Assembly: GCA_023701365.1 (NCBI GenBank)
Contig: JAMPXD010000003.1
Coordinates: 1-64,000, forward strand
Source of the DNA: Geobacteraceae bacterium
Lineage (GTDB): Bacteria; Desulfobacterota; Desulfuromonadia; Geobacterales; Geobacteraceae
DNA: 64,000 bases
Reading direction: 5' to 3'
Shown here: positions 1 through 64,000 of the stretch, piece after piece
Position numbering within the stretch: the stretch's first letter is position 1
Layout of the letters: each line of letters begins with the position of its first letter
The notes under the pieces: model-generated
What the model saw: the letters and a program-made list of their open reading frames with translations, nothing else
The model's database searches: none
Told to the model about the DNA's origin: nothing
Program-made: the position numbers and the translations under genes

Positions 1-74
1 CCGACGAATATATTTATTCATTTGTGCCCCCTCGCGATCGAACTATCGGACCTATAGCGTCAGTACCACACAGG

Positions 75-1274
75 TCATTTTGTTTCACTGGTTAGCCTTG
101 TATGAAGCGAATCTAGTAACGGCGTCATTATATGTATTAAAAGAGGTATAAAAAAGTAGCCGGTTATGGCAATTGGCTGAAAAATACCAAAAATCATGAC
201 AAATGCAGCGATCACATTAATTGGATAAAGCTTTTGAAATCCGGCACCCACGCCAGTTCTAAGCAAGTAACCCAACAAACAAAACATTGTAAAGGAGAAT
301 ATAAAACCTCCATCCAAGTAAAATGGAAGAATGTTTGTGGCAAATGCATTAAAATATCCGAAATTATCAATATATGTAACATCTGACATGGCAGTATTTA
401 GCGCTTGTTGTGTATACTCAATAGATATTCCAAAGCGTCGAAGATATAACGAAAGGATGTACTGAAAGTATCCGAGAGTATAACTAGGAAATATATAAGG
501 TGTCTGCAAAACTGGATTCTGCATTAAGCTTTCTAACAAGTAAAAGCCACCAACATGATACTTCAACACAGCTTCTTCAAATATGGTTTTAATCAGATCT
601 GCATTAACTTCACCAAGGAAACTTCTCCGTGAAAGTAATTGATACACACTCAAAACAGGAAGTCCTATCAGCATAGGAATGATATGTGATAGTTTCAACC
701 TTATGGTTCCTAACAACTGAGCTACAAGCAGGAAAAATACAAGATAATAAAGGGGGAATCGCCCTGCTTTAATTACTGCATCGAGCAGAAAGAAAGCTGC
801 GACATATAAAAACCACCACCCACCATGACTTCTCCTGCACATCCACACAGCAACCAGGTATATTCCGATTGGAATTAAAAACTGCTCATACAATACAAAT
901 GACTCGCTGCTGCCATGCACACCGGACTCAAAATACGCTTCTCTGAATCCAGCACCTAGATCTTCAATAATAAGTGAGGATTTTCTGTAAAGGATTAATT
1001 GATATCCGATTATTGCCGTCAAACCGTAAACTGGCAATTTAATGGATGAGCTGACTTCATTTTGTAGAGCTCTATTTTGAATTGATATTTTGCTTAATGG
1101 TAATGTCCCCAGATAAAAACCTAGAACTGAAAATAAAACCAGAAGAATTACCTTATATGATAGCCCTCCATATAGCAAGCTGGCAAGCATAAGCCAAAAG
1201 ATCCACCAACCTACAATACACCTACGTAGATTTGTTACCATGTCAAAGTTGTGATCGGAATAACAATCACTCAT
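75..1274 (-). CDS. O-antigen/exopolysaccharide repeat-unit polymerase (Wzy-like)
   Basis: This 399-residue protein is very hydrophobic, with about ten membrane-spanning stretches spread over its whole length, as in O-antigen and oligosaccharide polymerases. These are variable inner-membrane proteins that join repeat units on the periplasmic face. Sequence motifs are weak in this family, so the call rests on topology, size and position in a polysaccharide operon that also holds a flippase, a Wzz-type protein and an SLBB export protein. I chose the ATG at 1274 because it overlaps the upstream gene's stop in an ATGAGTGA junction (8 bp), which suggests translational coupling; an in-frame start at 1373 would overlap that gene by more than 100 bp. 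The gene is AT-rich compared with the rest of the window. It could instead be another polytopic O-unit modifying enzyme. Confidence 0.7.
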   Translation of the reverse strand: MSDCYSDHNFDMVTNLRRCIVGWWIFWLMLASLLYGGLSYKVILLVLFSVLGFYLGTLPLSKISIQNRALQNEVSSSIKLPVYGLTAIIGYQLILYRKSSLIIEDLGAGFREAYFESGVHGSSESFVLYEQFLIPIGIYLVAVWMCRRSHGGWWFLYVAAFFLLDAVIKAGRFPLYYLVFFLLVAQLLGTIRLKLSHIIPMLIGLPVLSVYQLLSRRSFLGEVNADLIKTIFEEAVLKYHVGGFYLLESLMQNPVLQTPYIFPSYTLGYFQYILSLYLRRFGISIEYTQQALNTAMSDVTYIDNFGYFNAFATNILPFYLDGGFIFSFTMFCLLGYLLRTGVGAGFQKLYPINVIAAFVMIFGIFQPIAITGYFFIPLLIHIMTPLLDSLHTRLTSETK

Positions 1275-2025
1275 TACCAGGCTTCCTGAACAGAAAACAA
1301 CCGCAGCCATAGACTTGTCTCTCGACAAGCTCCTCATCGGCATGGCGAATAAGCCCCTCTGTAGAACTGTCATCAGGTATCAATGAGAATTCAATCAAAG
1401 TCAAGCCAGGAAACATTCTTACCAGATCAATGTGTTTATATATTCGATGCGCATTAAACTGAATTTTAGAGACGCCTCCGACAGGAACTACTACCATTAA
1501 ATACCCACCCAACGCTACCACTCGCGACAATTCCTGCGCAGCTTTGAGATCACCATCATAATCAAGTGGGTCCCCGTAGCGTCCAAGTCCAATATGTTCG
1601 ATAACATGCATGCATGATAATGACTCGACTTGATTGTCTTCAAAAGGCAATTTAAGAATATCACCTTGCTTACAGGTCAACCCACCAAGTCGGAGATCAG
1701 CAGGCCTGTAATCATAGAACTCTATTGGTACAAATGCAGATGCACTTGCACAAAAATATAATGAGCTGGAAATATCTACATGCTTTTCAGGGGATAATTC
1801 GGATAGTATCCTGCAAGCCCAAGCTGTGTGGTAAACATAGTGCTTGTCAAAGCCGGTGAAAGGAGTGGCGTCGCTGTAACATGGCCAGCGATCATGCCAT
1901 CTTATCCTGAATCGATTGCTTTTATTATTCTTAAATGAAAGATATTGGAATACAAAAAGCATTCGCATACGTATGCTCATGGCCTTTCGCATGAGATACC
2001 TATGTAGTCTATTAGAATCAATCAT
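1267..2025 (-). CDS. DUF268-type SAM-dependent methyltransferase-like protein
   Basis: The 252-residue product resembles the DUF268 group of class I methyltransferase-like proteins found in surface-polysaccharide clusters. A segment around residues 120-150 ends a strand with LPFEDNQVESLSCMHVIEHI, the usual post-motif of SAM methyltransferases (acidic turn, then HVIEHIG). A glycine-rich strand-turn (GGYLMVVVPVGG) follows. The N-terminus is basic and partly hydrophobic. Its likely job is methylation of a sugar or nucleotide-sugar in the repeat unit, but the substrate cannot be read from sequence. It lies between the glycosyltransferase and the polymerase, and its stop overlaps the polymerase start. 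It has low GC like its neighbours. Confidence 0.7.
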   Translation of the reverse strand: MIDSNRLHRYLMRKAMSIRMRMLFVFQYLSFKNNKSNRFRIRWHDRWPCYSDATPFTGFDKHYVYHTAWACRILSELSPEKHVDISSSLYFCASASAFVPIEFYDYRPADLRLGGLTCKQGDILKLPFEDNQVESLSCMHVIEHIGLGRYGDPLDYDGDLKAAQELSRVVALGGYLMVVVPVGGVSKIQFNAHRIYKHIDLVRMFPGLTLIEFSLIPDDSSTEGLIRHADEELVERQVYGCGCFLFRKPGNE

Positions 2026-2100
2026 TTAATTTCTTTCTCAAGAACGGCAGTGTGATTATTAATATTAACGTAAAACAATCAGGGTACATACATAAGTATT

Positions 2101-3087
2101 TCAAATATTATCACGACTAATTTTCCCCATCATCCTTCTAATGAATGATGCTATTCTTCGAGCGTTACGAATCTTTTCTTTACCAATATGTTTTTTTATA
2201 CAGTATTTAATGTAAGTGGACTTGTCAGCACCGAATAAGGTCTTTTCAATTAGGCGATCAATATTTTCGTTGTTATCAATGAATGGTGGGTGATTGATGG
2301 CGATAGGTGAAGAATTCAATTTCAATCTGGTAACCCAATCAGGCATGTCACCTTTAGTATGAGTTGCTTCATCGCTATATCCGATATTAGAAACCAAATT
2401 GTACTTAGGAATAGCCACAAAAGAGTTATTATAATTAATAGAGAAGAACCATTGATAATCCCATGTATCTATCTGCCCTAAATATACTTTGTCATATATT
2501 TCTGTCCAGATTGCTTCAAAATTTTTATCAACCTTTGACACTTGCGATAGTCGATTCTGTTTTTTGAATGTAGGCCATTTACTCAAATCAACATCATAGT
2601 GCTTCCATGCTCTTCTCCAAGAAGCCCAACCCCAAACTATCGCATAATTACTAAATTCATATGCATATGTAGACTCATAGAGACCAGCGACAGGGTTACA
2701 ACCTGATATCATCATAACTTTGTTATTATATCTATACTTGTCCAAAAGCAACTCACAATAGTCAAAGAAAAGGTGCCCTGGAATAACATCATCTTCCAGT
2801 ATTATTCCTTCCTCCTCATTTTCAAAAAACCAAGTGATTGCACCGGATACAGCGTGCTTGCAACCCTGGTTTATATCTCTAAATAATGTTTTTATTTCAC
2901 ACGGCCAGTCTACAGCAGTCGCAATCTTCCGCACCTCATCGCAACGTTCTCTTTCCCCATCGCGATCTGGACGAGGTCCATCCGCCGCCACATAAAGACG
3001 TGGTGGTTTCGCTTGCCGAATTGCTTCAAATACCTGCCGTGTCGTATCTGGGCGATTAAAAACGAGAAATAGTACTGGCGTATTCAT
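2101..3087 (-). CDS. Glycosyltransferase family 2-like protein (HlpA-type)
   Basis: The 328-residue protein begins with the GT-A fold signature of family-2-like sugar transferases: a first strand PVLFLVFNRPDTTRQVFEAI, a second strand LYVAADGPR with its acidic turn, and an acidic EDDVIPG metal-binding motif near residue 98 in place of DXD. This pattern matches glycosyltransferases annotated as hemolytic protein HlpA-like. It should add one sugar of the repeat unit on the cytoplasmic face of the inner membrane; donor and acceptor are unknown. It has no membrane segment. It sits between flippase and methyltransferase genes in the same orientation, and it is AT-rich. Confidence 0.8.
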   Translation of the reverse strand: MNTPVLFLVFNRPDTTRQVFEAIRQAKPPRLYVAADGPRPDRDGERERCDEVRKIATAVDWPCEIKTLFRDINQGCKHAVSGAITWFFENEEEGIILEDDVIPGHLFFDYCELLLDKYRYNNKVMMISGCNPVAGLYESTYAYEFSNYAIVWGWASWRRAWKHYDVDLSKWPTFKKQNRLSQVSKVDKNFEAIWTEIYDKVYLGQIDTWDYQWFFSINYNNSFVAIPKYNLVSNIGYSDEATHTKGDMPDWVTRLKLNSSPIAINHPPFIDNNENIDRLIEKTLFGADKSTYIKYCIKKHIGKEKIRNARRIASFIRRMMGKISRDNI

Positions 3088-3159
3088 GTTAAAGTTACCA
3101 ACATTTTTGATAATTAGAATCTAAATTTGCATTTCAAGTAAGATGATATATTTACTCGA

Positions 3160-4521
3160 CTACGCACTCGACTTTTTTGCCAACATTAATCTTTTAATAA
3201 AGTAAAACTGGAAAAGACCAGATAATTGCATCTTAAGTATTCGAGGTGAGAAAAAGATATTACTACCAACTGCCGATGAAAATTGGACCAGGACAGCAAC
3301 TATCGCTGCACCACATGCACCAAATTTAGGGACCAAAATGAAATTGCCAATGATGCATATTATTAAACCAATGATTGTTTTATATAATCCAATACGACCG
3401 GCCCGTTCATTTACTATCCACAAATTTTGCGCTATACCTAGTGAAATAAAAATAAATGTAAAAATATGAATCGAGAGAATCAGCTTCGATGCTGAATATG
3501 CTTTTCCATATAGCAGATCAACCGCAAATGGCCCAGTTATAAGCACAAGTACGACAACAAGAACAGACACAGCACCGTAAGCTCCAAATATCATCTGCAA
3601 AGCTTCGTAATATGCTTGCTCCGACTCGGCTTTTTTACGGGCTACATAGGGACCTAAAGATGTCGATAATGTGAGGGGTATAAATCCCCAAAAACTTGAT
3701 AATGCCATGCCTGCAGAATAAATTCCAAGCTCTTTGTCACTTACGAATTGCCTGACCATAATCTGGTCAATTCTCATGTAGATCATGATTGCCAGGCCAC
3801 TTAACAGGAAAGGAAAGGATTGTTTAAGTATTTCTCCTGCAAGATGAAATTGAAACCGCCATCTTTTATTGCTTGGAAATCTCTTGTATGAAACCCACAA
3901 CCCTAGTGCGGCAATAATTACGTCCAATAACAGTGCTGTAGCAAACAATAAAAGAGATGCGTGAATTAGAATCAGGACAACTTTCACTCCATTGGTAAGA
4001 ATATATGCCAATAACTTTGGGATGACAGTCCGTCTATTTTGATTCTGACTTTGAAACCATAAATCTATGGTATCAGCCGCTTGAAAAACCAGAACGCCAC
4101 CTACAATTCCGGTTACAAGCAATGCCTCCATGTCTTGGGGTCTTAAGAACCACACGATACCAAGCATGATTACCCAGGAAAGAAGACCAAACAGCACCCT
4201 TAACCAAAAAACCGTTCCAAGAATTTCTGGAGCACCTTCCGGATGCTTAACCAGGTCGCGAATTATTATTCCGTCTGCTCCCAAATTTGCCACGCCTTGA
4301 AACAACGCAACCATTGCAATTGAATAGGCAAGCTCTCCGTATCGCTCCGGACCAAGATACCGGGCAACCCAAGCCCCAATGGTAAGACCCAACGCAAGAC
4401 GAACAAATTTATCCAGCATGAGCCACCCGGTGTTATCAACTATGGTTCGCAGGTTTGGTCTTCCAGCGAAACGGTCGCGAATGACCTGTGGCATTTGTCT
4501 CATCCATGCTGCTTCAGACAA
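3160..4521 (-). CDS. Oligosaccharide flippase (Wzx/PST family)
   Basis: The 453-residue protein has about twelve hydrophobic segments and the N-terminal pattern typical of polysaccharide transporters: NTGWLMLDKFVRLALGLTIG followed by WVARYLGPERYGELAYSIA. Members of this MOP-superfamily group move undecaprenyl-linked repeat units across the inner membrane. A conserved loop (WFQSQNQNRRTVIPKL) and the YMRIDQIMVRQFVSD segment of the second half are also present. The gene lies between the UDP-xylose synthase and glycosyltransferase genes, consistent with a Wzx/Wzy-dependent pathway. GC content falls across this gene compared with the export genes to its right. Confidence 0.88.
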   Translation of the reverse strand: MSEAAWMRQMPQVIRDRFAGRPNLRTIVDNTGWLMLDKFVRLALGLTIGAWVARYLGPERYGELAYSIAMVALFQGVANLGADGIIIRDLVKHPEGAPEILGTVFWLRVLFGLLSWVIMLGIVWFLRPQDMEALLVTGIVGGVLVFQAADTIDLWFQSQNQNRRTVIPKLLAYILTNGVKVVLILIHASLLLFATALLLDVIIAALGLWVSYKRFPSNKRWRFQFHLAGEILKQSFPFLLSGLAIMIYMRIDQIMVRQFVSDKELGIYSAGMALSSFWGFIPLTLSTSLGPYVARKKAESEQAYYEALQMIFGAYGAVSVLVVVLVLITGPFAVDLLYGKAYSASKLILSIHIFTFIFISLGIAQNLWIVNERAGRIGLYKTIIGLIICIIGNFILVPKFGACGAAIVAVLVQFSSAVGSNIFFSPRILKMQLSGLFQFYFIKRLMLAKKSSA

Positions 4522-54291: not shown

Positions 54292-55635
54292 TCAGCGGAG
54301 ACATTGGAACACCCCCATGCACCAGAGGCAGGAGCCGCACGGAACGTCCTTGATATGGCAGTCCTGCTGGAACTCCTCGGTCTGGACATAGTCACAGGGG
54401 GCCAGGCCGCAGGCGGAACAGTTGGGGTAATCATAGCCGAGCACATTCTCGCGGAATGAGCGGTATGCCGGGTCATTCCAGATATCCAGGATGCCCCGCT
54501 GTTCCAGGTTGCCGAACACCTTCGGCTGCACCTGCTGCAGCCAGCTGCTGGCAAAGCAGCTGTAGCGGTGCCACAGGAAGTAGCAGGGGGAGACATCCCC
54601 CTCCCAGGAGACGAACGTCCCCCCTTCCTCGACGAAGCTGCAGCGGCGCTGTTCCCGCAGAGTGACCTCGGGGAGCCGGAGCTCCAGCCCGTATTCCCGG
54701 GCCACCGCCGCGGCTTGGGCAAACACCGCGGCAACCTCCGCAATCATGGCACCGTCCAGCTGCAGGAGCTTTTTCAGGTCGATGAATATGTCGCGCTCTT
54801 TTGCCGCGCCCTTCATGGCATCGACGAGATTGACGATCCTCTGGGATTCGGGGTTCCTGGTGTACTTCCAGCGCGCCTCGAAATAGCGGCTGAGATCAAG
54901 CCCCTGCCGGTCCGCCTCTGCCTTGTACTCATGGAACAGCACCATGGCCTCATCGGTGCAGTTGCCGTAGGCGGCCTCGCCCGCATGCTGTTCATCGTAG
55001 GGGAGAACATGGGTCACTATGGCGAAGGAGGCGCCATGCTCGGCGGCCCAGCGTAGGGCGGCGGGGAGCTCCCCGAGGTTGCTCCGCATCACCACGAATT
55101 CTATCCCCACCTGAACTTCCGGCCTGTTGCAGCGCTCCTTGGCCGCGGCCAGGGCCGCAAAGGCACGGTCGACCGCCAGCAGCTCCCCCCCCTCGCGGAC
55201 CTTGCGGAAAGTCTCCGGAGATGCCGCATCAATGGAGAGGCAGATCCTGTCGAGACCGGCCTCGACCAGGGAAAGCGCCCGGGACTCGGTGAGCAGGAGG
55301 CCGTTGGACTGGAAGCCGATCCATCCCGTCGCCGGCATGGACCTCCTGGCCCGGCGGATGAACCCCTCCAGCCCGGGGTTGAGGAGCGGTTCGCCGATGC
55401 CGTTGAGGAGCAGCGCTTCCAGATGGGGAAAGGCGGGCTCCAGGGCCGCGAACCGTTCCGGCGACATCTCCCCCTCGGTCATCCCGCAGCCAGCGGTCTG
55501 CTTGACGCACATGAAGCAGCCGAGGTTGCAGCGCGTGGTGGTCTCGACGAACAGCTTGGCGGGATGAGCCCTGAGCGCGGGAGGGGTAACAGCGGTAGGC
55601 GCGGTGGCCCCGGATGGTCTTGCATTCTCCGACAT
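54292..55635 (-). CDS. Radical SAM/SPASM protein (paralogue 1), possible AOR cofactor-modifying protein
   Basis: The 447-residue protein has the radical SAM motif C36-x3-C40-x2-C43 (CNLGCFMC), the GEPLLNP motif after strand 3 and a cysteine-rich SPASM-type C-terminus of about a dozen Cys (for example NCSACGLAPC and CGSCLWCMG), enough for one or two extra iron-sulfur clusters. SPASM enzymes usually modify peptides or proteins. Similar proteins next to tungsten aldehyde oxidoreductases have been called cofactor-modifying proteins, and such an enzyme gene lies 6 kb away. The ATG has CAGGAG five bases upstream. Its 5' leader can form a nested hairpin. It shares most of its length with the gene at 56805-58142. 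Confidence 0.85.
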   Translation of the reverse strand: MSENARPSGATAPTAVTPPALRAHPAKLFVETTTRCNLGCFMCVKQTAGCGMTEGEMSPERFAALEPAFPHLEALLLNGIGEPLLNPGLEGFIRRARRSMPATGWIGFQSNGLLLTESRALSLVEAGLDRICLSIDAASPETFRKVREGGELLAVDRAFAALAAAKERCNRPEVQVGIEFVVMRSNLGELPAALRWAAEHGASFAIVTHVLPYDEQHAGEAAYGNCTDEAMVLFHEYKAEADRQGLDLSRYFEARWKYTRNPESQRIVNLVDAMKGAAKERDIFIDLKKLLQLDGAMIAEVAAVFAQAAAVAREYGLELRLPEVTLREQRRCSFVEEGGTFVSWEGDVSPCYFLWHRYSCFASSWLQQVQPKVFGNLEQRGILDIWNDPAYRSFRENVLGYDYPNCSACGLAPCDYVQTEEFQQDCHIKDVPCGSCLWCMGVFQCLR

Positions 55636-55652
55636 GTATACTCCTGAACGAT

Positions 55653-55701
55653 CTGGTAGCGGGTACGGGCATGGGATGCCCTTTTTTTGTTACGCTACCA
55701 G
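55653..55701 (-). other. Nested hairpin in the 5' leader of radical SAM gene 1
   Basis: Outer arms CTGGTAGCG/CGCTACCAG (9 bp, perfect) enclose an inner GGGCAT/ATGCCC stem. It ends about 20 bp before the start codon. On the plus strand the inner stem plus seven T residues looks like a terminator, but no plus-strand gene ends here. It may control the minus-strand gene or act as a terminator for antisense transcription. Confidence 0.5.
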
Positions 55702-55763
55702 CATTCCAGGCCGATTACCTTGACATATATCAAAACTGGCCAGGAAAAGCGCGCCGGCAGAAT

Positions 55764-56591
55764 TTACGCGCTGTCCTTGTCCCGGTGGCCGATGCCGATC
55801 GCGGTGAGACCTTGCCGCAGCTCCTGCAGGGCGGCGGCGAGCCGGCCATCCAGGAGGGCCCGGTCGCTCCCCACTGCGGAGAGGATGATGTCGATTTCCC
55901 GCGTCTCGCCGAGGGTCCTGGCCAGGGACTTGACATAGATGTCGGGATGGCCGTTGACCACCCCGGTGAGCACCGGCTCCATCAGCGACTCGTCGTTGCA
56001 CTGCACGGTGATGGCCCGCATAACCGACAGGCCGCCGCTGAAGGTCGCCCGCAGAAATGGCTGGAGGGAGCCGGCAAAGATCCCCTTCAGCTCCGACGGG
56101 ACACCGGGGAGGGAGATGATGGCGGCCCGGCCGGTCCGGAGCAGGACTCCGGGGGCGGTGCCGACCGGGTTGGAGAGCGGCACGGCCCCCGCGGGGAGCC
56201 AGGCCATCTTCTCCCGGGGGGGATTTAGCCCCCCCTGGGAGAGCACCCCCTGGGCGGCCAGCTCGTCATAACGCTCCCGGACCATCTGCAGGGCCTGTTC
56301 ATGCAGCCGCAGCTCGACAGCGGCGCCCCGCGCCACGGCGGCAAGGGTGAGGTCGTCGGCGGTGGGACCAAGGCCGCCGGAGGTGATGATGACCCGGGCG
56401 CCCCGCCCCAGCGCGGCATGCAACTCGGCGGCAATGGTTTCCGCGACGTCGCGCAGGAGTGTGACCCGGGCCACATACCCCCCCAGGCTGTTGATTTCCT
56501 TGCACAACCAGTGCGTGTTCGTGTCCTGGATATCGCCGATCAGTATTTCGTTGCCGATGATGAATATTTCCACAACAACCGGTTCTGACAT
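55764..56591 (-). CDS. Molybdopterin-binding domain protein (CinA N-terminal type)
   Basis: The 275-residue protein opens with VVVEIFIIGNEILIGDIQDTN (quoted beyond one motif only in part) and has the ITSGGLGPTADDLTLAAVA loop of the MoaB/MogA/CinA molybdopterin-binding fold. The amidase domain that ends full CinA is absent; about 100 residues follow the binding fold. In this setting a role in handling the pterin cofactor is likely, but generic CinA-like function is possible. The ATG at 56591 has GGGGGGAGG upstream; an alternative ATG at 56615 overlaps the stop of the small Cys-rich gene. Confidence 0.8.
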   Translation of the reverse strand: MSEPVVVEIFIIGNEILIGDIQDTNTHWLCKEINSLGGYVARVTLLRDVAETIAAELHAALGRGARVIITSGGLGPTADDLTLAAVARGAAVELRLHEQALQMVRERYDELAAQGVLSQGGLNPPREKMAWLPAGAVPLSNPVGTAPGVLLRTGRAAIISLPGVPSELKGIFAGSLQPFLRATFSGGLSVMRAITVQCNDESLMEPVLTGVVNGHPDIYVKSLARTLGETREIDIILSAVGSDRALLDGRLAAALQELRQGLTAIGIGHRDKDSA

Positions 56592-56611
56592 GGAGCCTCC
56601 CCCCCTGCTTT

Positions 56612-56791
56612 TCATGCGGCCGACCTCTGTACCGGGTCATGGCCCGGGCAGTCGTCCCGGGGGCCGATCCAGACCTGCTCTATCCGGAACACCGGGCAGA
56701 CGAATTTCCAGGCACATGCCCTCTCGGTACAGAAATGGCTGGCGTGTGCGATCTCGTGCTCAATCTTACATATCGGGCAATGTATTTTCAA
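56612..56791 (-). CDS. Small Cys/His-rich protein between radical SAM and molybdopterin-binding genes
   Basis: An unassigned frame encodes 59 residues with six cysteines (5, 8, 21, 26, 32, 48) and five histidines (4, 12, 16, 19, 51): HCPICKIEHEI, then HFCTERACAWKFVCPVF and DDCPGH. The start would be TTG at 56791, 13 bases after the radical SAM stop, with only a weak ribosome site, so coupling is assumed. Its stop forms an ATGA overlap with an alternative start of the next gene. It may be a zinc-binding protein, or a substrate or partner of the neighbouring SPASM enzyme. Not recognised as a known family. Confidence 0.5.
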   Translation of the reverse strand: MKIHCPICKIEHEIAHASHFCTERACAWKFVCPVFRIEQVWIGPRDDCPGHDPVQRSAA

Positions 56792-56804
56792 GATAGTTTC
56801 TCGC

Positions 56805-58142
56805 CTAATCCAGGCAGCGGAACACCCCGGAGCTCCAGAGGCAGCAGCCGCACGGTTCCGTGTTGACGTAGCAGTCCTGAATGAATTCATCCTTTTGCAG
56901 ATAGTCGCAGGGGGCGAAGTTGCAGGCGGCACAGGATGGATAGTCGTGGCGCAGGACGTTTTCCCGGTAGCCGCGGAACTCCCTGCTGTTCCAGATGTCG
57001 AGGATCCCCCTTTCCACGACGCTGCCGAACACCCGCGGCTGCACCGGGGAGAGCCAGCCGTTGGCGAACGAGCGGCACTGGTGCCAGAGCTGATAGCAGG
57101 GGTGCATCCGGCCGTCCCGGGAGATGAATGCTCCCCCCTGTTCGACAAAGGCGCATCCCCTTCTCCCCAGCGGCACCAGTTCCGGAAGCCGCAGCTCGAG
57201 CCCGGTCGTTCGGGCCACCTCGCCGGCCCGGTCAAATACCTCCGCCACCCGTTCCAGACGGGAATAGTCCATGGCGAAGAGCCGTTTCAGGTCAAGGGAG
57301 ATCCCCCGGTGCCGGGCATCGGCCCGCATGGCATCGACGAAATTGACGATCCTCTGCTCCTCGGGGGTCTTGACGTATTTCCAGAGGAGCTCGAAATAGC
57401 GGCGGATCTCCACCCCGGCGAGCTCCGCCTTGTTCTGCCAGACATGGAACAGGGAGAGGGCCTCGTCGGAACAGGTCTCATAGGCGCGCTGGCCGAGATG
57501 GCTTTCATCGTAAGGGTGGAGATGGGAGACGATGGCAAAGGTCGCCCCCCGCGCGGCGGCCCACTGGAGTGCGGCGGGGAGCTCCGCCAGGTTGTCGCGC
57601 ATGGCGACGTACTCCACGCCGACCTGCAGCTCGGGCCGGCCGCAGATCGCCTTGGCAGAGGCGACGGCGGAGAAGGCCAGCTCCAGATCGAGCAGTTCCC
57701 CACCGGTCCGGAGCGAGCTGAAGGTGGCGGGAGAAACGCCATCCATCGACAGGCAGATCCGGTCGAGCCCCGCATCTACCAGGGTCACGGCCCGCATGTT
57801 GGAGAGGAGCAGGCCGTTGCTCTGGAAGCCGATCCACCCCTGCGCCGGCATCAGCTTTCGTGCCCGGCTGATGAACTGTTCCAGGCGGGAGTTGAGCAGC
57901 GGCTCGCCGACCCCGTTCAGCACCAGGGCGTCCAGATGGGGCAAGGCGCTCTCCAGCGCCTCGAAGGTGGCCGGCTCCAGGTCCCCGTCGCCGGCTGCGC
58001 CGTCCCGGTTCTGCTTCATGCACATGACGCAGTTCAGATTGCAGCGGCTGGACGTCTCGACGTACAGTTTCGACGGGTGCTCCCGGTGCGCAGGGGAGGG
58101 ACGGAGATCCGGATGGCATACGGCCAGTGATTGTCGGGACAT
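56805..58142 (-). CDS. Radical SAM/SPASM protein (paralogue 2)
   Basis: The 445-residue protein has the radical SAM motif C34-x3-C38-x2-C41 (CNLNCVMC), GEPLLNS and a Cys-rich SPASM-type tail (SCAACNFAPC, CGCCLWSSG). It aligns with the gene at 54292-55635 from end to end, with long identical stretches such as GWIGFQSNGLLL and AGLDRICLS, so the two arose by duplication. Two tail cysteines of paralogue 1 are missing (CLWCMG becomes CLWSSG). The ATG follows GAGG. A hexanucleotide tandem repeat lies 19 bp upstream. Confidence 0.85.
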   Translation of the reverse strand: MSRQSLAVCHPDLRPSPAHREHPSKLYVETSSRCNLNCVMCMKQNRDGAAGDGDLEPATFEALESALPHLDALVLNGVGEPLLNSRLEQFISRARKLMPAQGWIGFQSNGLLLSNMRAVTLVDAGLDRICLSMDGVSPATFSSLRTGGELLDLELAFSAVASAKAICGRPELQVGVEYVAMRDNLAELPAALQWAAARGATFAIVSHLHPYDESHLGQRAYETCSDEALSLFHVWQNKAELAGVEIRRYFELLWKYVKTPEEQRIVNFVDAMRADARHRGISLDLKRLFAMDYSRLERVAEVFDRAGEVARTTGLELRLPELVPLGRRGCAFVEQGGAFISRDGRMHPCYQLWHQCRSFANGWLSPVQPRVFGSVVERGILDIWNSREFRGYRENVLRHDYPSCAACNFAPCDYLQKDEFIQDCYVNTEPCGCCLWSSGVFRCLD

Positions 58143-58160
58143 GGGGCCTCAGTGAAGAGC

Positions 58161-58199
58161 AGGTAAAGGTAAAGGTAAAGGTAAAGGTAAAGGTAAAGG
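58161..58199. repeat. Hexanucleotide tandem repeat (AGGTAA)6.5
   Basis: Six and a half perfect AGGTAA units lie in the 84-bp gap between the ribbon-helix-helix gene and radical SAM gene 2, in the leader of the latter. Hexamers do not shift frame, but copy number could change spacing or RNA structure near its ribosome site. Confidence 0.9.
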
Positions 58200-58226
58200 G
58201 AGAGGCAAGATTCTCCCTCATGAGCA

Positions 58227-58421
58227 TCAGCTCTTCGCCAATGCCCCCGCGGCCCGGGACATTTCCCAGTGGGCCTTGAACATCATGAAGGCATCCCGCA
58301 TCAGATCGGCCGGCCTCTTCTCGGTCAGCTCCATGATCTGCTGGATGCTCACCATCTCATCGTCGGTAATGCGCATGGAAACGATGTTGGGCTTCTTCGG
58401 ATTCTTGTACTTTCTCGGCAT
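58227..58421 (-). CDS. Ribbon-helix-helix (CopG/Arc-like) small protein
   Basis: The 64-residue protein has a basic N-terminus (PRKYKNPKKP), a beta strand IVSMRIT, helix DDEMVSIQQIMEL, turn and second helix RPADLMRDAFMMF, the plan of ribbon-helix-helix DNA-binding proteins. It probably binds DNA as a dimer and may regulate this cluster. The ATG at 58421 has GAGGAG upstream; a longer frame to 58520 runs through a repeat. It is the first gene of the radical SAM operon. Confidence 0.75.
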   Translation of the reverse strand: MPRKYKNPKKPNIVSMRITDDEMVSIQQIMELTEKRPADLMRDAFMMFKAHWEMSRAAGALAKS

Positions 58422-58491
58422 GATTCGCTCTCCTCTTCTATGCTGACGTATGTGGCTGGTACTATGAAGCAGTATCGATTTTATATTTCTC

Positions 58492-58573
58492 GTAGGGTGG
58501 GTTAGCGCAGCGTAACCCACCAGCCGGCATCGAACGGTGGGTTACGGCGATGAATCCGCCTAACCCACCCTAC
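58492..58573. repeat. Second GTAG-type inverted repeat doublet (REP-like)
   Basis: GTAGGGTGGGTTAGCGCAG begins a first palindrome (GGTGGGTT/AACCCACC) and the element ends with an inverted copy, AACCCACCCTAC. This 82-bp doublet belongs to a different sequence family from the repeats at 49669 and 59654 but has the same GTAG head-to-tail design. It lies between the ribbon-helix-helix gene and moaA. Confidence 0.8.
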
Positions 58574-58627
58574 AAAATCTGACCTGTCCGCCGTACAACT
58601 TTGGCAGGCGGCAGGCGGAATGCGACC

Positions 58628-59608
58628 CTAGCCGCCGATCTGCGACATGGGAATTGAGCCCCTCCCCGCCTCTTCATCCGCCAGCCGGTGCCGCCCCGGC
58701 TTGCCGGTGACGATCCGGCGCAGGGTTTCCCGCAATCCGCCGTCGTCGCCGGCATCCAGGTACTGCCTGAGATCGATCCCGCCGTCGGCGAACAGGCACC
58801 CCCGCACCAGTCCGGCGGCGCTCACCCTGATCCGGTTGCAGCTGTCGCAGAAATGGCCGGAGATCGGGGTGATAATGCCGATAGCCCCGGCAGCGCCGCT
58901 GATCTTGAAGTTCCTGGACGGCCCGGCCATCTCGCTGCTCACCAGCGGCAGCAGCGGATAGCGGCGGCCGATCCGCTCCAGGATCTCGTTGCCGGTGACG
59001 CAGAGCGCGCTTGCCCCCTGGCCGCCGACGGTCGGCATGTATTCGATGAAGCGGACCGTGTACGGCCGGCGCAGGGTCAGGGCGGCGAAGTCCAGCAGCT
59101 CGTCATCGTTTACCCCCCGCATCACCACCATGTTGATCTTGGCCGGCGGGAACCCCGCGTCCTCGGCAGCGGCAATGCCGTCGATCACCCTGCGCAGGTC
59201 CCCGCCGCGGGTGATCCCGGCGAACACTTCCGGCTTGAGCGAATCGAGGCTGATGTTGAGCCGCCCCACCCCGGCGCGGCGCAGGGGAAGGGCCATCTCT
59301 CCGAGGAGCAGGCCGTTGGTGGTGAGGACCAGCTCTCGGAGGGCCGGAATAGCTGCCAGCCGCTCGATGAAGCCGATCAGCCCCTTCCTGACCAGTGGTT
59401 CGCCGCCGGTGATCCGGATCTTCTCGATCCCCAGGGCTACCGACTCGGCTGCCACCCGCAACAGCTCCTCATAACTGAGCATCTCGCCGTGCGCCAGCTT
59501 GGCTATCCCGTCCGCAGGCATGCAGTAACTGCAGCGCAGGTTGCAGCGGTCGGTGACCGACAGCCTGAGGTAATTAATCCGTCTGCCGTAAGAATCGATG
59601 AGTGCCAT
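58628..59608 (-). CDS. moaA: GTP 3',8-cyclase MoaA
   Basis: The 326-residue radical SAM enzyme has the N-terminal cluster site C22-x3-C26-x2-C29 (CNLRCSYC), LTTNGLLL, the second cluster site CDSCNRIRVSAAGLVRGC and the C-terminal Gly-Gly needed for activity. It turns GTP into the 3',8-cyclo intermediate, the first step of molybdenum/tungsten pterin synthesis. It lies upstream of the radical SAM operon in the same orientation but is separated by a repeat. The ATG is about 45 bp from a REPIN element. Confidence 0.96.
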   Translation of the reverse strand: MALIDSYGRRINYLRLSVTDRCNLRCSYCMPADGIAKLAHGEMLSYEELLRVAAESVALGIEKIRITGGEPLVRKGLIGFIERLAAIPALRELVLTTNGLLLGEMALPLRRAGVGRLNISLDSLKPEVFAGITRGGDLRRVIDGIAAAEDAGFPPAKINMVVMRGVNDDELLDFAALTLRRPYTVRFIEYMPTVGGQGASALCVTGNEILERIGRRYPLLPLVSSEMAGPSRNFKISGAAGAIGIITPISGHFCDSCNRIRVSAAGLVRGCLFADGGIDLRQYLDAGDDGGLRETLRRIVTGKPGRHRLADEEAGRGSIPMSQIGG

Positions 59609-59653
59609 GCCGGTCCCTCGCGGGGAATGAAATGTATTTTCAATAACTATATT

Positions 59654-59772
59654 GAGGCACTTGCAAAAGTGGTTTTCATTGTAGGAGCGCCGCCCCCGGC
59701 GCGATAACAGACTGAAATCGCGGCGAGGGCGCCGCTCCTACATCGGATCCGGGATAATTTTGCAAGAAGCTC
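59654..59772. repeat. REPIN-type repeat, copy B (inverse of copy A)
   Basis: A 119-bp element whose reverse complement is nearly identical to 49669-49788, differing at about a dozen scattered positions. It has the same facing GTAG palindromes and TTTTGCAAG ends. It separates moaA from the dehydrogenase-oxidoreductase upstream region. Confidence 0.85.
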
Positions 59773-60235
59773 TATTGTTTTGGTTTAAGGGTTTAAATCC
59801 GCCGTTATCAGATTTTTCCGCCTTTTCCGCGTCCAATTATTCTTTCGCCTTTCTTGGTTGGTTCCTGCTCTTCCGCCGTAGGAAGATTCCTTTTTTGTAG
59901 ACAGGCAATTTCGATACCAATTCCCCCGGAAAGGGTGGTGGCAGGGATGACCTGCCACTTGCGGGACCGGCCGAGAGCCTGACAGCCGTGGCATGAGCCA
60001 TATTACCCGGCATCGCGGGGACAGCAGGAACGGGGTTATCACCCCGCCTGGAGAGGAGACACCCCCAGTTCCATTTCATTACATGTGTGCCATAACGGAA
60101 CAACAATACTGTTCCTTTTTAGAACTCGACTCGCCGATTCCGCATTCCGCAACAGGCGCGGCGTCCCCGGAACCCCCCTGTAACTGCCGGCAGATTCAGG
60201 GCTTACAGGAAAAGATGGAGGGGGGGCGCGATAAT
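59773..60235 (+). other. Gene-free upstream region with strong RNA-like structure
   Basis: No convincing gene was seen between the repeat and the sigma-54 promoter. From about 59925 to 60050 the plus strand is dense in stems: GTGGCAGG/CCTGCCAC around GATGA (59938-59958), CGGGGT/ACCCCG around TATC within an outer CAGG/CCTG (60025-60050), and the unpaired-looking ACCGGCCGAGAGCCTG between. This could be a small RNA or leader. I could not match it to a known riboswitch class. Confidence 0.45.
60097..60120. promoter_or_regulatory. Inverted repeat GGAACA-N7-TGTTCC: enhancer site or terminator
   Basis: A perfect 6-bp inverted repeat lies about 140 bp upstream of the -12 box of a sigma-54 promoter, the right distance for an enhancer-binding protein. 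It is followed on the plus strand by five T residues, so it might instead terminate a short upstream RNA. Confidence 0.5.
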
Positions 60236-60251
60236 TGGTACAGGCCTTGCG
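60236..60251 (+). promoter_or_regulatory. Sigma-54 promoter of the dehydrogenase-oxidoreductase unit
   Basis: TGGTACAGGCCTTGCG has GG and GC 10 bp apart and a TTGC -12 box, matching the consensus TGGCACG-N4-TTGCA well. The start would be near 60262, leaving a leader of about 87 bases with a GGGTG-GCAA-CACCC hairpin (60311-60324) just before the ribosome site. Confidence 0.7.
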
Positions 60252-60348
60252 TTTACATAAAAAGTCGTTCTAGGAAATTGTATGCGACAGAGCGCTGACC
60301 AAGGCAATCCGGGTGGCAACACCCACAATTAAAAAGGAGGAAGTAAAA

Positions 60349-61512
60349 ATGGCTTTAGCAGATCAGACATTCGGATTCTTCATCCCCACCGTCTCCCTCA
60401 TGGGCGTAGGCTGCTCCAAGGAAGCCGGCACCCAGGCAAAGGCGCTCGGCGCCAGCAAGCTGCTGATCGTCACCGATGCCGGCCTCGCCAAGATGGGGGT
60501 CGCCGACAAGATCAAGGGGTACGTGGAAGAAGCCGGCCTCCAGGCGGTCATCTTCGACGGCGCCGAGCCGAACCCGACCGACAAGAATGTCCATGACGGC
60601 GTCAAGGTCTACCAGGAGAACAAGTGCGACGGCATCATCTCCCTCGGCGGCGGCAGCTCCCACGACTGCGGCAAGGGTGTGGGCCTGGTGATCGGCAACG
60701 GCGGCAACATTCGCGACTTCGAAGGGGTCAACAAGTCGACCAAGGCTATGCCCCCCTTCCTCGCCATCAACACCACCGCCGGCACCGCAAGCGAGATGAC
60801 CCGCTTCTGCATCATCACCAACACCGACACCCACGTGAAGATGGCGATCGTCGACTGGCGCTGCACCCCGAACATCGCCATCAACGACCCGGTCCTGATG
60901 GTCGGCAAACCCCCCGCACTGACCGCCGCCACCGGCATGGACGCCCTGACCCACGCGGTCGAGGCGTACGTCTCCACCATCGCCACCCCGATCACCGACG
61001 CCTGCGCCATCAAGGCCATCGAACTGATCGCCGAGTACCTCTCCCCGGCCGTGGCCAACGGCCAGAACCTGGAAGCCCGCGACAAGATGGCCTACGCCGA
61101 GTACCTGGCCGGGATGGCCTTCAACAACGCCAGCCTCGGCTACGTCCACTCCATGGCCCACCAGCTGGGTGGCTTCTATAACCTGCCGCACGGGGTCTGC
61201 AACGCCATCCTGCTCCCGGCCGTCAGCGAGTACAACGCCATCGCCTGCCCGAAGCGGTTCGCCGACATCGCCGTGGCCCTGGGCGAGGACGTCACCGGCC
61301 TCGCCCCGATGGACGCCGCTGCCAAGGGCATCGCCGCAATCCGCAAGCTCTCCAGGGCGATCGGCATCCCCTCCGGCCTCAAGGAGCTGAACGTCAAGGA
61401 AGCCGACCTGAAGGTCATGGCCGAGAACGCCAAGAAGGACGCCTGCCAGCTGACCAACCCGCGCACCGCCACCCTGGATCAGGTCATCGACATCTTCAAG
61501 GCAGCCATGTAG
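60349..61512 (+). CDS. Iron-containing alcohol dehydrogenase
   Basis: The 387-residue protein is a group III alcohol dehydrogenase: NAD-binding IISLGGGSSHDCGKGVGLV, MTRFCIITN, and metal-binding His residues in GMDALTHAVEAYVS and HSMAHQLGGFYNLPHGVCNA. It interconverts primary alcohols and aldehydes with NAD(H). The ATG at 60349 has a consensus AAGGAGG nine bases upstream. Codons are strongly biased to C- and G-ending forms compared with neighbours, suggesting high expression. It precedes the aldehyde oxidoreductase and likely shares its transcript. Confidence 0.95.
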   Translation: MALADQTFGFFIPTVSLMGVGCSKEAGTQAKALGASKLLIVTDAGLAKMGVADKIKGYVEEAGLQAVIFDGAEPNPTDKNVHDGVKVYQENKCDGIISLGGGSSHDCGKGVGLVIGNGGNIRDFEGVNKSTKAMPPFLAINTTAGTASEMTRFCIITNTDTHVKMAIVDWRCTPNIAINDPVLMVGKPPALTAATGMDALTHAVEAYVSTIATPITDACAIKAIELIAEYLSPAVANGQNLEARDKMAYAEYLAGMAFNNASLGYVHSMAHQLGGFYNLPHGVCNAILLPAVSEYNAIACPKRFADIAVALGEDVTGLAPMDAAAKGIAAIRKLSRAIGIPSGLKELNVKEADLKVMAENAKKDACQLTNPRTATLDQVIDIFKAAM

Positions 61513-61541
61513 TTCCTGCTTGAAGCTGAATTGGAACCAGA

Positions 61542-61572
61542 GACCTGGCAGGTTTTGAAAACCTGCCAGGTC
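61542..61572 (+). other. Long perfect hairpin between dehydrogenase and oxidoreductase genes
   Basis: GACCTGGCAGGTTTT and its complement face each other with one central base, giving a stem of about 13 bp. No T-run follows, so it is probably an RNA-stability or processing element or a weak attenuator, not a full terminator. Confidence 0.65.
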
Positions 61573-61600
61573 TTGCCGTAACGGAACCATAATCAACCAT

Positions 61601-61711
61601 CTCCGAGCCTGTCAGCCTAACGGGGCAATCCTCACGGCGGCAAGGCCTACGGGTTTCACTGGAAACGGCGGAGCCTCCCTTTCGGAAAGGAGTTTTATCC
61701 GCGCGAGCGGA
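61601..61711 (+). ncRNA. Candidate structured leader (riboswitch-like) of the aldehyde oxidoreductase gene
   Basis: In the 228-bp gap an outer stem CTCCG (61601-61605)/CGGAG (61669-61673) encloses about 60 conserved-looking bases, followed by CCTTT-CGG-AAAGG (61678-61690) and a TCCGC-GCGA-GCGGA hairpin with a GNRA tetraloop (61698-61711), ending about 20 bases before the ribosome site. The Moco/Tuco RNA family, which occurs before Mo/W enzyme and cofactor genes, is the obvious candidate, but I could not confirm its consensus by eye. Confidence 0.45.
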
Positions 61712-61740
61712 GATCAACAACATGACAGGGAGAAGAAACA

Positions 61741-63471
61741 ATGGATAAGATTTTACGCGTAGACATGTCCGCCCTCAGCACCAGGATCGAGACCGTTCCC
61801 GCCGCCTGGGCCGGCCTCGGCGGCCGCGGCCTGACCTCGACCATCGTTGCCGCAGAGGTGCCCCCCACCTGCCACCCGCTCGGCGCCAACAACAAGCTGG
61901 TCTTTGCCCCGGGGCTCCTCACCGGCACTCCCGCCGCCAACTCAGGCCGTCTCTCGGCAGGGGCGAAGAGCCCCCTGACCGGCACCATCAAGGAGTCGAA
62001 CGCCGGCGGCACCGCGGCCCAGATGCTGGCCCGCCTCGGGATCAAGGCGCTGATCATCGAAGGGCTCCCCGAGGCGGACAAATGGTACAGCCTCCACGTC
62101 AGCAAGGACGGGGTCACCATCCAGGAAGAAACGGAGCTGGTCGGCAAGGGGAACTTTGCGGTGATCGAGGCGGTCGAGGCCCGGCTCGGCAAGAAGACCG
62201 GGGTCCTGACCATCGGCCCCGCCGGCGAGCTCAAGATGACCGCGGCCAACATCTCGGTCAAGGACCCGGACAGCAAGATCCGCAGCCACGGCCGCGGCGG
62301 TCTCGGCGCGGTGATGGGCTCCAAGAAGATCAAGTTCATCTCCATCGACGACCAGGGCGCCCCCGGGGTGAAGATCGCCGACCCGGAGAAATTCAAGACC
62401 GCGGCCCGCACCTTCGCCAAGGCCCTGCTCGACCATCCGGTCAGCGGCGAGGGTCTGCCGACCTACGGCACCAACGTGCTGGTCAACATCCTCAACGAGG
62501 CGGGCGGCCTGCCGACCAGGAACTTCAGCACCGGCCAGTTCGCCGGGGCCGAGAAGATCTGCGGCGAAACCATGCACGACACCATCGTCGCCCGTGGCGG
62601 CAAGCCGAAGCACGGCTGCCACGCCGGCTGCATCATCCAGTGTTCCCAGGTCTACCCCGACAAGGAGGGGAAATACAAGACCTCCGGCTTCGAGTATGAG
62701 ACGATCTGGGGATTCGGCGCCGACTGCTGCATCGACGACCTGGACGACATCGCCGAAGCCGACAACGTCATGGACGACCTCGGGATCGACTCCATCGAGA
62801 CCGCCGTCATGTTCGCGGTGGCCATGGAAGCCGGCGTTCTCCCCTTCGGTGACGGCAAGGGGGTAATTCGCCTGCTCAGGGAGGAGATCGGCAAGGGGAC
62901 CCCGCTCGGCCGCATCCTCGGCAACGGCGCGGGCTCGGTGGGCAACGCCTACGGCATCACCCGGGTACCGGTGGTGAAGAACCAGGGCATCCCCGCCTAC
63001 GATCCCCGCTCGGTAAAGGGGATCGGCATCACCTACGCCACCAGCACCATGGGGGCGGACCACACCGCCGGCTACACCATCGCCACCAACATCCTCAACG
63101 TCGGCGGTTACGTCGATCCGCTGAAGAAGGAAGGCCAGGTCGAGCTCTCCCGCAACCTCCAGATCGCCACCGCGGCGGTAGACTCCACCGGGATGTGCAT
63201 CTTCATCGCCTTCCCGGCCCTGGACATCCCCGAGTGCCTGCCGGCCCTGATCGACATGATCAACGCCCGGTTCGGCATTGCCCTCACCGGTGAAGACGTC
63301 ACTAACCTCGGCAAGTACGTCCTGAAGACCGAGCGGCAGTTCAACATCGGGGCCGGCTTCACCAACAAGCACGACCGCCTCCCCGAGTTCTTCTACACCG
63401 AGCCGGTGGCGCCCCACAATGCGGTATGGGATTTCACCGACGAAGAAATCGACGAATACTGGAATTTCTAG
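61741..63471 (+). CDS. aor: Aldehyde:ferredoxin oxidoreductase (tungsten pterin family)
   Basis: The 576-residue protein belongs to the AOR family: N-terminal domain with GGRGLTSTIVAAEVPP and FAPGLLTGTPAANSGRLSAGAKSP (quoted in part), RSHGRGGLGAVMGSKKIK, and the metal-binding second half. Cluster ligands appear to be C293, C297, C301 and C486; the first three have spacing Cx3Cx3C instead of the Cx2Cx3C known from Pyrococcus AOR. The enzyme oxidises aldehydes to acids with ferredoxin, or the reverse, using a tungsten bis-pterin. The ATG has GGGAG upstream. C-ending codon bias suggests strong expression. MoaD-like and ThiF-like genes follow. Confidence 0.93.
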   Translation: MDKILRVDMSALSTRIETVPAAWAGLGGRGLTSTIVAAEVPPTCHPLGANNKLVFAPGLLTGTPAANSGRLSAGAKSPLTGTIKESNAGGTAAQMLARLGIKALIIEGLPEADKWYSLHVSKDGVTIQEETELVGKGNFAVIEAVEARLGKKTGVLTIGPAGELKMTAANISVKDPDSKIRSHGRGGLGAVMGSKKIKFISIDDQGAPGVKIADPEKFKTAARTFAKALLDHPVSGEGLPTYGTNVLVNILNEAGGLPTRNFSTGQFAGAEKICGETMHDTIVARGGKPKHGCHAGCIIQCSQVYPDKEGKYKTSGFEYETIWGFGADCCIDDLDDIAEADNVMDDLGIDSIETAVMFAVAMEAGVLPFGDGKGVIRLLREEIGKGTPLGRILGNGAGSVGNAYGITRVPVVKNQGIPAYDPRSVKGIGITYATSTMGADHTAGYTIATNILNVGGYVDPLKKEGQVELSRNLQIATAAVDSTGMCIFIAFPALDIPECLPALIDMINARFGIALTGEDVTNLGKYVLKTERQFNIGAGFTNKHDRLPEFFYTEPVAPHNAVWDFTDEEIDEYWNF

Positions 63472-63492
63472 TATAATAAAAAGCAGGTCGAC

Positions 63493-63553
63493 AGGCTGAA
63501 GGCTGAAGGGGGTGAGGAATTACAAATTCCCTTCTGCCTTCAGTCTTCAGCCT
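63493..63553. repeat. Imperfect 29-bp inverted repeat (AGGCTGAAGG type)
   Basis: Arms 63493-63521 and 63525-63553 match at 23 of 29 positions and are built from GGCTGAA heptamers. Similar units (CTTCAGCCTTCAGCC) lie near 38135-38150, before the CBS-domain gene, so this is a dispersed intergenic repeat. Confidence 0.7.
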
Positions 63554-63555
63554 AA

Positions 63556-63582
63556 GGAGGGGCGGACCTGATCCGCCCCTCC
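63556..63582. other. Perfect 11-bp hairpin before the MoaD-like gene
   Basis: GGAGGGGCGGA pairs with TCCGCCCCTCC around a five-base loop. There is no T-run, so readthrough into the MoaD-like gene is expected; it may protect the aor message. Confidence 0.65.
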
Positions 63583-63613
63583 CCTTTACCCTGTCCTCTC
63601 GATGGGAGAAGCC

Positions 63614-63838
63614 ATGCACATCACCGTAAAGCTGTTCGCAACATTCCGCGTCGGCCGCTTTGCCGCGCAAGCCCGGGAGTACCCGGAGGGGACCCGCATC
63701 GCCGATGTCGTCAGGGATCTTCATATCCGCGAAGCGGAAATCGGCACCATCATGCTCAACAACAGGCATGCGGAACCGGACCAGCAGCTGAACGACGGGG
63801 ACAACCTGTCGATCTTCCCCCTGGTCGGCGGAGGCTAA
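63614..63838 (+). CDS. MoaD/ThiS-like sulfur-carrier protein
   Basis: The 74-residue protein has the ubiquitin-like MoaD pattern (ITVKLFATFR at the start, LNDGDNLSIFPLVGGG at the end). The C-terminal glycines are the site of adenylation and thiocarboxylation in this family. It would supply sulfur for the dithiolene of the pterin cofactor. The start at 63614 follows GGGAG; an in-frame ATG at 63602 is possible. It lies between aor and a probable ThiF-like activating enzyme, so it may be a dedicated version. Confidence 0.88.
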   Translation: MHITVKLFATFRVGRFAAQAREYPEGTRIADVVRDLHIREAEIGTIMLNNRHAEPDQQLNDGDNLSIFPLVGGG

Positions 63839-63839
63839 C

Positions 63840-64000
63840 ATGGAACAGCTCCACGCCTTTCTGCGGGACCACGCCACCGCCGATCTCCTCCCCTGGCCCG
63901 CCCAGACCGCGGCGGCGCAGCGGTTCGGCACACCTCTGGCCCTGGTCGAGGAGGCGGCCCTCGGACTGGGGCTCCTCCCCGCCCGCTATCAGCGCAACCG
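63840..64000 (+). CDS. Start of a probable HesA/MoeB/ThiF-family protein (cut by window end)
   Basis: Only 53 codons are visible, beginning one base after the MoaD-like stop. The sequence (LVEEAALGLGLLPARYQRN) resembles the N-terminal helical extension of ThiF/MoeB-type proteins, in which LPARYQRN-like words precede the adenylating domain. No ATP-binding motif is inside the window, so the call rests on this short match and on the position after a MoaD-like gene. Confidence 0.5.
   Translation, partial: MEQLHAFLRDHATADLLPWPAQTAAAQRFGTPLALVEEAALGLGLLPARYQRN

Follow-up and report, generated by a model that had tools for sequence, protein, structure and literature searches.

The DNA considered here is a stretch of 64,000 nucleotides (the window) from a Geobacteraceae bacterium, as the host is placed by its nearest named relatives. 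Its end, positions 54292–64000, carries a gene cluster built around an aldehyde:ferredoxin oxidoreductase (AOR), and the contig (JAMPXD010000003.1, here C80) continues beyond it to position 65837. On the minus strand, the order of transcription is MoaA (GTP 3',8-cyclase, 58628–59608; TIGR02666, 356 bits for a cut-off of 284), a small ribbon-helix-helix (RHH)-like protein (58227–58421), a radical SAM/SPASM protein termed SPASM-B (56805–58142), a Cys-rich open reading frame (ORF) that is doubtful as a gene (56612–56791), a CinA-type, molybdopterin-binding-like protein of the MoCF_biosynth family (55764–56591, with an alternative start at 56615; PF00994, 118 bits), and a second radical SAM/SPASM protein, SPASM-A (54292–55635). 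The plus strand encodes an iron-containing alcohol dehydrogenase (Fe-ADH, 60349–61512; PF00465 and PF25137), a riboswitch (61589–61708), the AOR large subunit (61741–63471), a MoaD/ThiS-like protein of the 'WorX' type with a GGG end (63614–63838, with an alternative start at 63602; PF02597), and a ThiF/MoeB-like adenylyltransferase (63840–64000, continuing on C80 to 64685) with homologues beside AOR-MoaD in relatives. The 1.8 kb of C80 past the window hold the rest of the latter gene, MoaE (65077–65460), and, from 65510 up to the last position of the contig (65837), the first part of the gene for the tungstate-binding protein TupA. All proteins named in the original prediction, which was made from the window alone, are present, and the riboswitch is an addition to its list. 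The description of the locus as a self-contained system was too strong: MoaA, MoaD and MoeB are encoded, but neither MoaC nor MoeA was seen in the window, which ends shortly before the genes for MoaE and TupA.

In AORs, tungsten is held on two pterins, and aldehydes are oxidised to acids. The AOR of the window, termed AOR1, consists of both AFOR domains (PF02730 and PF01314) and matches the Pyrococcus furiosus enzyme (1aor) with 284 bits. The active-site Thr, Glu, Tyr and His, as listed in PMC13328260, are aligned between the two proteins. In the region of the [4Fe-4S] cluster cysteines, the window protein and its relatives of the order have a CX3CX3C motif with a distal Cys, instead of CX2CX3C in the P. 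furiosus enzyme; 49 of the 53 AORs checked have the arrangement of the window protein. The riboswitch aptamer belongs to the Moco/Tuco (molybdenum/tungsten cofactor) family RF01055 (60.8 bits, E = 4e-12, gathering score 36), and the columns of stem P3 are deleted in its alignment. As the form without P3 was tied to the tungsten cofactor by Regulski et al. (PMC2408646), this feature supports the assignment of the locus to tungsten rather than molybdenum. The original identification of a tungsten-AOR locus is upheld. Riboswitches of the same family are also found 5' of aor in relatives, both with AOR1 and with a second type, AOR2, which is 55–59% identical to the AOR of the window. In Pelobacter carbinolicus, the AORs are expressed with tungstate and have acetaldehyde as a substrate (PMC4275255). 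The source genome (G000) encodes two further AORs on contigs C107 and C78, 76–77% identical to that of the window, one of them beside an Fe-ADH gene.

Both SPASM proteins, which have Pfam Radical_SAM and SPASM domains, are full-length members of TIGR04311 (SPASM-A, 666.5 bits; SPASM-B, 613.9 bits; model positions 1–423; cut-off 400). This family is described in NCBIfam as rSAM_Geo_metal, a radical SAM/SPASM 'putative metalloenzyme maturase', so that the maturase function is a putative one proposed by the database. The nearest other family is TIGR04317 (W_rSAM_matur), curated as a tungsten cofactor oxidoreductase maturase, with 228.7 bits for SPASM-A and 208.6 bits for SPASM-B; neither protein is a member, the cut-off being 380. 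Two TIGR04317 members directly abut an AOR gene in the genomes examined here. No paper naming TIGR04311 or TIGR04317 was found in the open-access literature.

The original prediction had presented the two SPASM genes as a duplication. SPASM-A and SPASM-B are 57% identical, and in a tree built from 104 relatives within the order they fall into separate deep clades, clade A (40 rows) and clade B (29 rows), next to a third set, C (35 rows). A recent tandem duplication is ruled out by this identity and this separation. The pair is, as far as the tree and the gene order tell, two old paralogues brought together, since the clades are old and a clade A gene next to a clade B gene was seen in the source genome only, among the neighbourhoods read.

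The conserved clade B locus consists of MoaA, a MOSC protein, the RHH protein, electron-transfer flavoprotein beta and alpha subunits, a Cys-rich-domain iron-sulfur protein, and SPASM-B, divergent from ADH-AOR-MoaD-ThiF. No electron-transfer flavoprotein genes are found at the corresponding place in the window. Homologues of the CinA-type protein occur in several clade B loci, and Fe-ADH is paired with AOR in most of them; SPASM-B is the orthologue that belongs to AOR1 loci. Clade A genes are mostly located outside the AOR1 locus, often directly 3' of an RHH gene. Several of them (L093, L097, L099, L137, L051) are downstream of a cluster resembling HdrABC and flavin oxidoreductases, with Fer4, CCG, FAD-binding and NAD-binding proteins.

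The distribution of TIGR04311 was examined in 141 genomes of the order, with AOR called at E under 1e-100 against the window protein; TIGR04311 was also scored as present in two cases of a partial match. TIGR04311 and AOR occurred together in 70 genomes, TIGR04311 alone in 3, AOR alone in 9, and neither in 59. The association held within genera, with a Mantel-Haenszel odds ratio of about 123. An AOR gene was found within 15 kb at 31 of the 111 TIGR04311 places. The link between the SPASM proteins and AOR, which had been proposed from their proximity, is thus borne out. In a draw of 395 genomes from the phylum, an AOR of the broad type was present in 170; TIGR04311 was present in 19, of which 17 had an AOR, and TIGR04317 exceeded its cut-off in 10.

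The two paralogues differ in their partners. Among the 70 SPASM-positive genomes, AOR2 was found in 30 of the 33 genomes with clade A, versus 1 of the 37 without it, and AOR1 in 28 of the 29 genomes with clade B, versus 11 of the 41 without it. The source genome was counted as having AOR2 on the basis of a contig-end fragment, in which 48 residues match AOR2 C-termini. Within genera, the Mantel-Haenszel chi-square was 13.3 for clade A with AOR2 and 7.5 for clade B with AOR1. In 24 genomes, which belong to several genera, the clade B gene and AOR1 are 3–11 kb apart. In three genomes of the class-level family f6, including Geothermobacter hydrogeniphilus, AOR2 and a TIGR04311 gene are direct neighbours in divergent orientation. 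Of the two possibilities raised to account for two SPASM genes, that of two targets is favoured by this pattern, as a bias rather than a strict rule.

Clade B also differs by its cysteines. Both SPASM proteins of the window keep the radical SAM motif CX3CX2C (C34, C38, C41; SPASM-B numbering) as well as C330, C349, C404, C407, C412, C424, C431, C434 and C443, and SPASM-B has C356, S358 and S437. In an alignment of 122 sequences, the 93 that do not belong to clade B all have C358, whereas position 358 is Ser, Ala or a gap in every clade B sequence and C356 is present in 29 of 29. Position 437 is Ser or Gly in clade B and mostly Cys in the others. The outgroup state indicates that the cysteine set of clade B is derived. 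It is presumed that the changed cysteines bind iron-sulfur clusters, and a clade-wide change of such probable ligands argues for a changed function and not for a copy kept for dosage.

Two genes with an in-frame TGA were encountered. A distant TIGR04311 relative in G296 (L200:352-1700, minus strand) has it exactly at the first Cys of CX3CX2C. As this genome has SelB, selenocysteine is plausible at this position. In G122, a clade C gene (L105:9276-10658, plus strand) has a TGA at an otherwise conserved Cys of the SPASM domain; here a nonsense mutation is more likely, as a full SelB was not found in G122.

The best explanation of these observations, with an estimated probability of 0.58, is that TIGR04311 enzymes mature AOR-type tungstoenzymes and that the paralogues are biased to AOR types, serving two targets rather than two steps. 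At the locus of the window, Fe-ADH would make an aldehyde from an alcohol, and AOR1 would oxidise the aldehyde to the acid. MoaA, MoaD, MoeB and MoaE would supply molybdopterin, and TupA would take up tungstate, while the Tuco-type riboswitch would place aor under the control of the cofactor level. The TIGR04311 proteins would be radical SAM maturases; most likely, the AOR protein itself is what they recognise, and either one of its residues or the tungstopterin bound to it is what they modify. SPASM-B would be the resident maturase of AOR1, and SPASM-A a member of the AOR2-associated clade that moved into this locus. A more detailed version, in which TIGR04311 installs an unseen post-translational or cofactor modification and the paralogues, with different auxiliary iron-sulfur ligand sets, are matched to an ADH-linked AOR1 and a mycofactocin-linked AOR2, is put forward tentatively.

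Several observations weigh against maturation of AOR by TIGR04311. Nine genomes of the order have AOR alone. G036 and G042 have no TIGR04311 but keep every other gene of the AOR1 locus. In G119, the AOR1 locus is intact except for a broken clade B SPASM remnant behind the RHH gene (L153:12263-12658, plus strand); the loci without an intact SPASM gene are L149, L150 and L153. Replacement of the lost TIGR04311 by TIGR04317 is rejected, as no member exceeded the cut-off in the nine genomes. A comparison of AOR sequences for residues altered where the SPASM gene is lost gave no convincing case: the differences were limited to positions 266 and 281, in three of six. In the phylum draw, most AOR genomes have neither TIGR04311 nor TIGR04317. 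Among the 17 genomes that have AOR1 without clade B, 8 have only clade A, 3 only clade C, and 6 no SPASM gene. In the order, an AOR gene is rarely found close to a clade A gene. This distance had been regarded beforehand as contrary to the proposal, but nearly all genomes concerned do have an AOR. The genomes are related and the tests are not independent, so that p-values overstate the evidence. Finally, the core of the AlphaFold model is good but the C-terminal cysteine region has a pLDDT (predicted local distance difference test) under 50. The fold matches include radical SAM enzymes for peptides as well as for small molecules and do not discriminate between substrates. TIGR04311 is therefore not universally required for AOR; considering the AOR1 loci without SPASM and the AORs of the phylum without TIGR04311, it acts for some AORs only, or under a particular condition.

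Among the other explanations, the one that fares best, although it is unlikely, is that the SPASM proteins serve the alcohol-oxidation side, either Fe-ADH or mycofactocin-type redox carriers, and that AOR merely shares the pathway. The AOR2 loci of the order are mycofactocin clusters, with MftF, OYE_2, MftC, MftB and MftA over their cut-offs, together with FixC-like and flavoprotein genes, and AOR2 is found inside them with MoaD and ThiF (L155, L156, L157, L158, L159, L160, L161, L162, L167). Of the 38 genomes with AOR2, 36 also have MftF. Clade A tracks MftF (30/33) about as well as AOR2, and could follow mycofactocin instead of AOR2. Fe-ADH genes are also near many SPASM genes, and in P. carbinolicus three paralogous radical SAM genes, possibly of the TIGR04311 family, are beside diol and glycerol clusters (PMC3543383). 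Clade B, however, does not track mycofactocin (6/29), and the f6 genomes with a TIGR04311 gene adjacent to AOR2 have no MftF, which makes AOR, not mycofactocin, the common partner. At the locus of the window there is no mycofactocin gene, and no MftF was found in the source genome, which is about 90% complete; the SPASM proteins of the window belong to TIGR04311 and not to MftC (TIGR03962). The Fe-ADHs form a large and widespread family, so that proximity to one of them says little.

It is less probable still that the SPASM proteins modify free tungsten pterin into a special cofactor common to all AORs of the cell. The neighbouring MoaA, MoaD, MoeB, MoaE and TupA would fit such a synthesis, and the relatives by sequence and by fold include MoaA and other radical SAM enzymes that act on small molecules. 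A shared product does not explain the bias of clade A to AOR2 and of clade B to AOR1, nor the AOR1 loci without SPASM. Recognition of the AOR protein is preferred to the making of one modified pterin for all AORs, since such a product would need no paralogue for each AOR type.

The small ORFs of the locus were considered as partners of the SPASM proteins. The RHH protein is probably a DNA-binding regulator, as judged from its sequence pattern and its homologues; it has no Pfam match of its own, and its relative in L059 weakly matches RHH_1. It is improbable that it pairs with the SPASM proteins as substrate or sensor, with AOR as a downstream regulatory target. Its homologous cluster has members in 41 of 102 loci. 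Homologues directly precede many clade A genes and are part of the clade B loci, but are next to almost no clade C genes; the protein is retained in AOR1 loci without a SPASM gene, and no conserved C-terminal motif resembling a modification site was found among the homologues compared. As a SPASM substrate, the RHH protein is unlikely on the same three grounds. A shared operator for it was sought before the ADH gene, where only conserved words without assignment were found. A sigma-54-like -24/-12 element, TGGTACAGGCCTTGCG, located 5' of the ADH gene (60236–60251, plus strand) is a candidate only, as the window contains 4 matches for a chance expectation of 2.5. A 6-base repeat (TAAAGG/CCTTTA), present in about eight copies in the gap that separates SPASM-B from the RHH gene (58155–58202), could vary in length and affect expression. 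REP (repetitive extragenic palindrome)-like palindromic intergenic sequences were noticed on reading the sequence at 58493–58577 and 59684–59742, beside the RHH and MoaA genes. The 'tiny Cys-rich protein' of the original prediction does exist as an ORF of 59 residues with a TTG start, which overlaps the long CinA start. It has no convincing relative in the 141 genomes and a lower third-position G+C (0.72, versus 0.83–0.87 in the neighbours), which makes it doubtful as a gene; for want of relatives, it is rejected as a substrate peptide.

The other possibility raised, that one AOR or cofactor is modified in two successive steps, would suit two SPASM genes in one apparent operon beside one AOR, but is very improbable and is rejected as a general rule, since only 6 of the 56 genomes with clade A or B have both (B occurs without A in 23 and A without B in 27), the clades are associated with different AORs, and the juxtaposition is confined to the source genome among the neighbourhoods examined.

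Part of this picture is already known, namely the AOR-MoaD-MoeB neighbourhoods, WorX, the riboswitch, and the maturase proposal for TIGR04311 and TIGR04317. Tungsten cofactor neighbourhoods with AOR, MoaD and MoeB, together with MoaA and MoaE, were described by Iyer et al. 2006 (PMC1779556). The locus of the window has the same core; the passages of that paper on these neighbourhoods list Geobacter and Pelobacter, but do not mention the SPASM proteins, the RHH protein or the riboswitch. Class I tungsten oxidoreductases have a stand-alone large subunit and a ThiS/MoaD-like WorX (PMC13328260), and the AORs of P. carbinolicus are tungsten-dependent, three of them with predicted riboswitches (PMC4275255, PMC3543383). 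The stand-alone large subunit and WorX are common to these systems and to the locus of the window, the enzymes of which are predicted from sequence. TIGR04317 is the closest other family by score and two of its members abut AOR, but the window proteins fall under its cut-off. The TIGR04311 model covers all clades, but separates neither the types of AOR partner nor the cysteine change of clade B. Mycofactocin clusters (TIGR03962, TIGR03965, TIGR03969) contain AOR2, the apparent partner of clade A, whereas the locus of the window has no mycofactocin gene. In the open-access literature, no paper was found with both mycofactocin and 'aldehyde ferredoxin oxidoreductase', nor were the paralogue-partner pattern, the cysteine change, the natural loss cases or the link between AOR2 and mycofactocin. 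The paralogue-partner pattern and the cysteine change appear to be new.

At the other end of the window, positions 1–4000 have a G+C content of 38.5%, versus about 60% elsewhere, and the adjoining genes are of the polysaccharide type (GDP-mannose dehydratase family, Wzz). This combination suggests that genes for surface polysaccharides were acquired.

The pattern found in the order suggests that AOR is the partner that oxidises aldehydes in the mycofactocin clusters of Geobacterales. The role of SPASM proteins beside tungsten oxidoreductases becomes a directly testable question with the partner pattern, the cysteine change and the natural AOR loci without SPASM, and cultured relatives exist in Geomonas, Citrifermentans, Geotalea and Geothermobacter.

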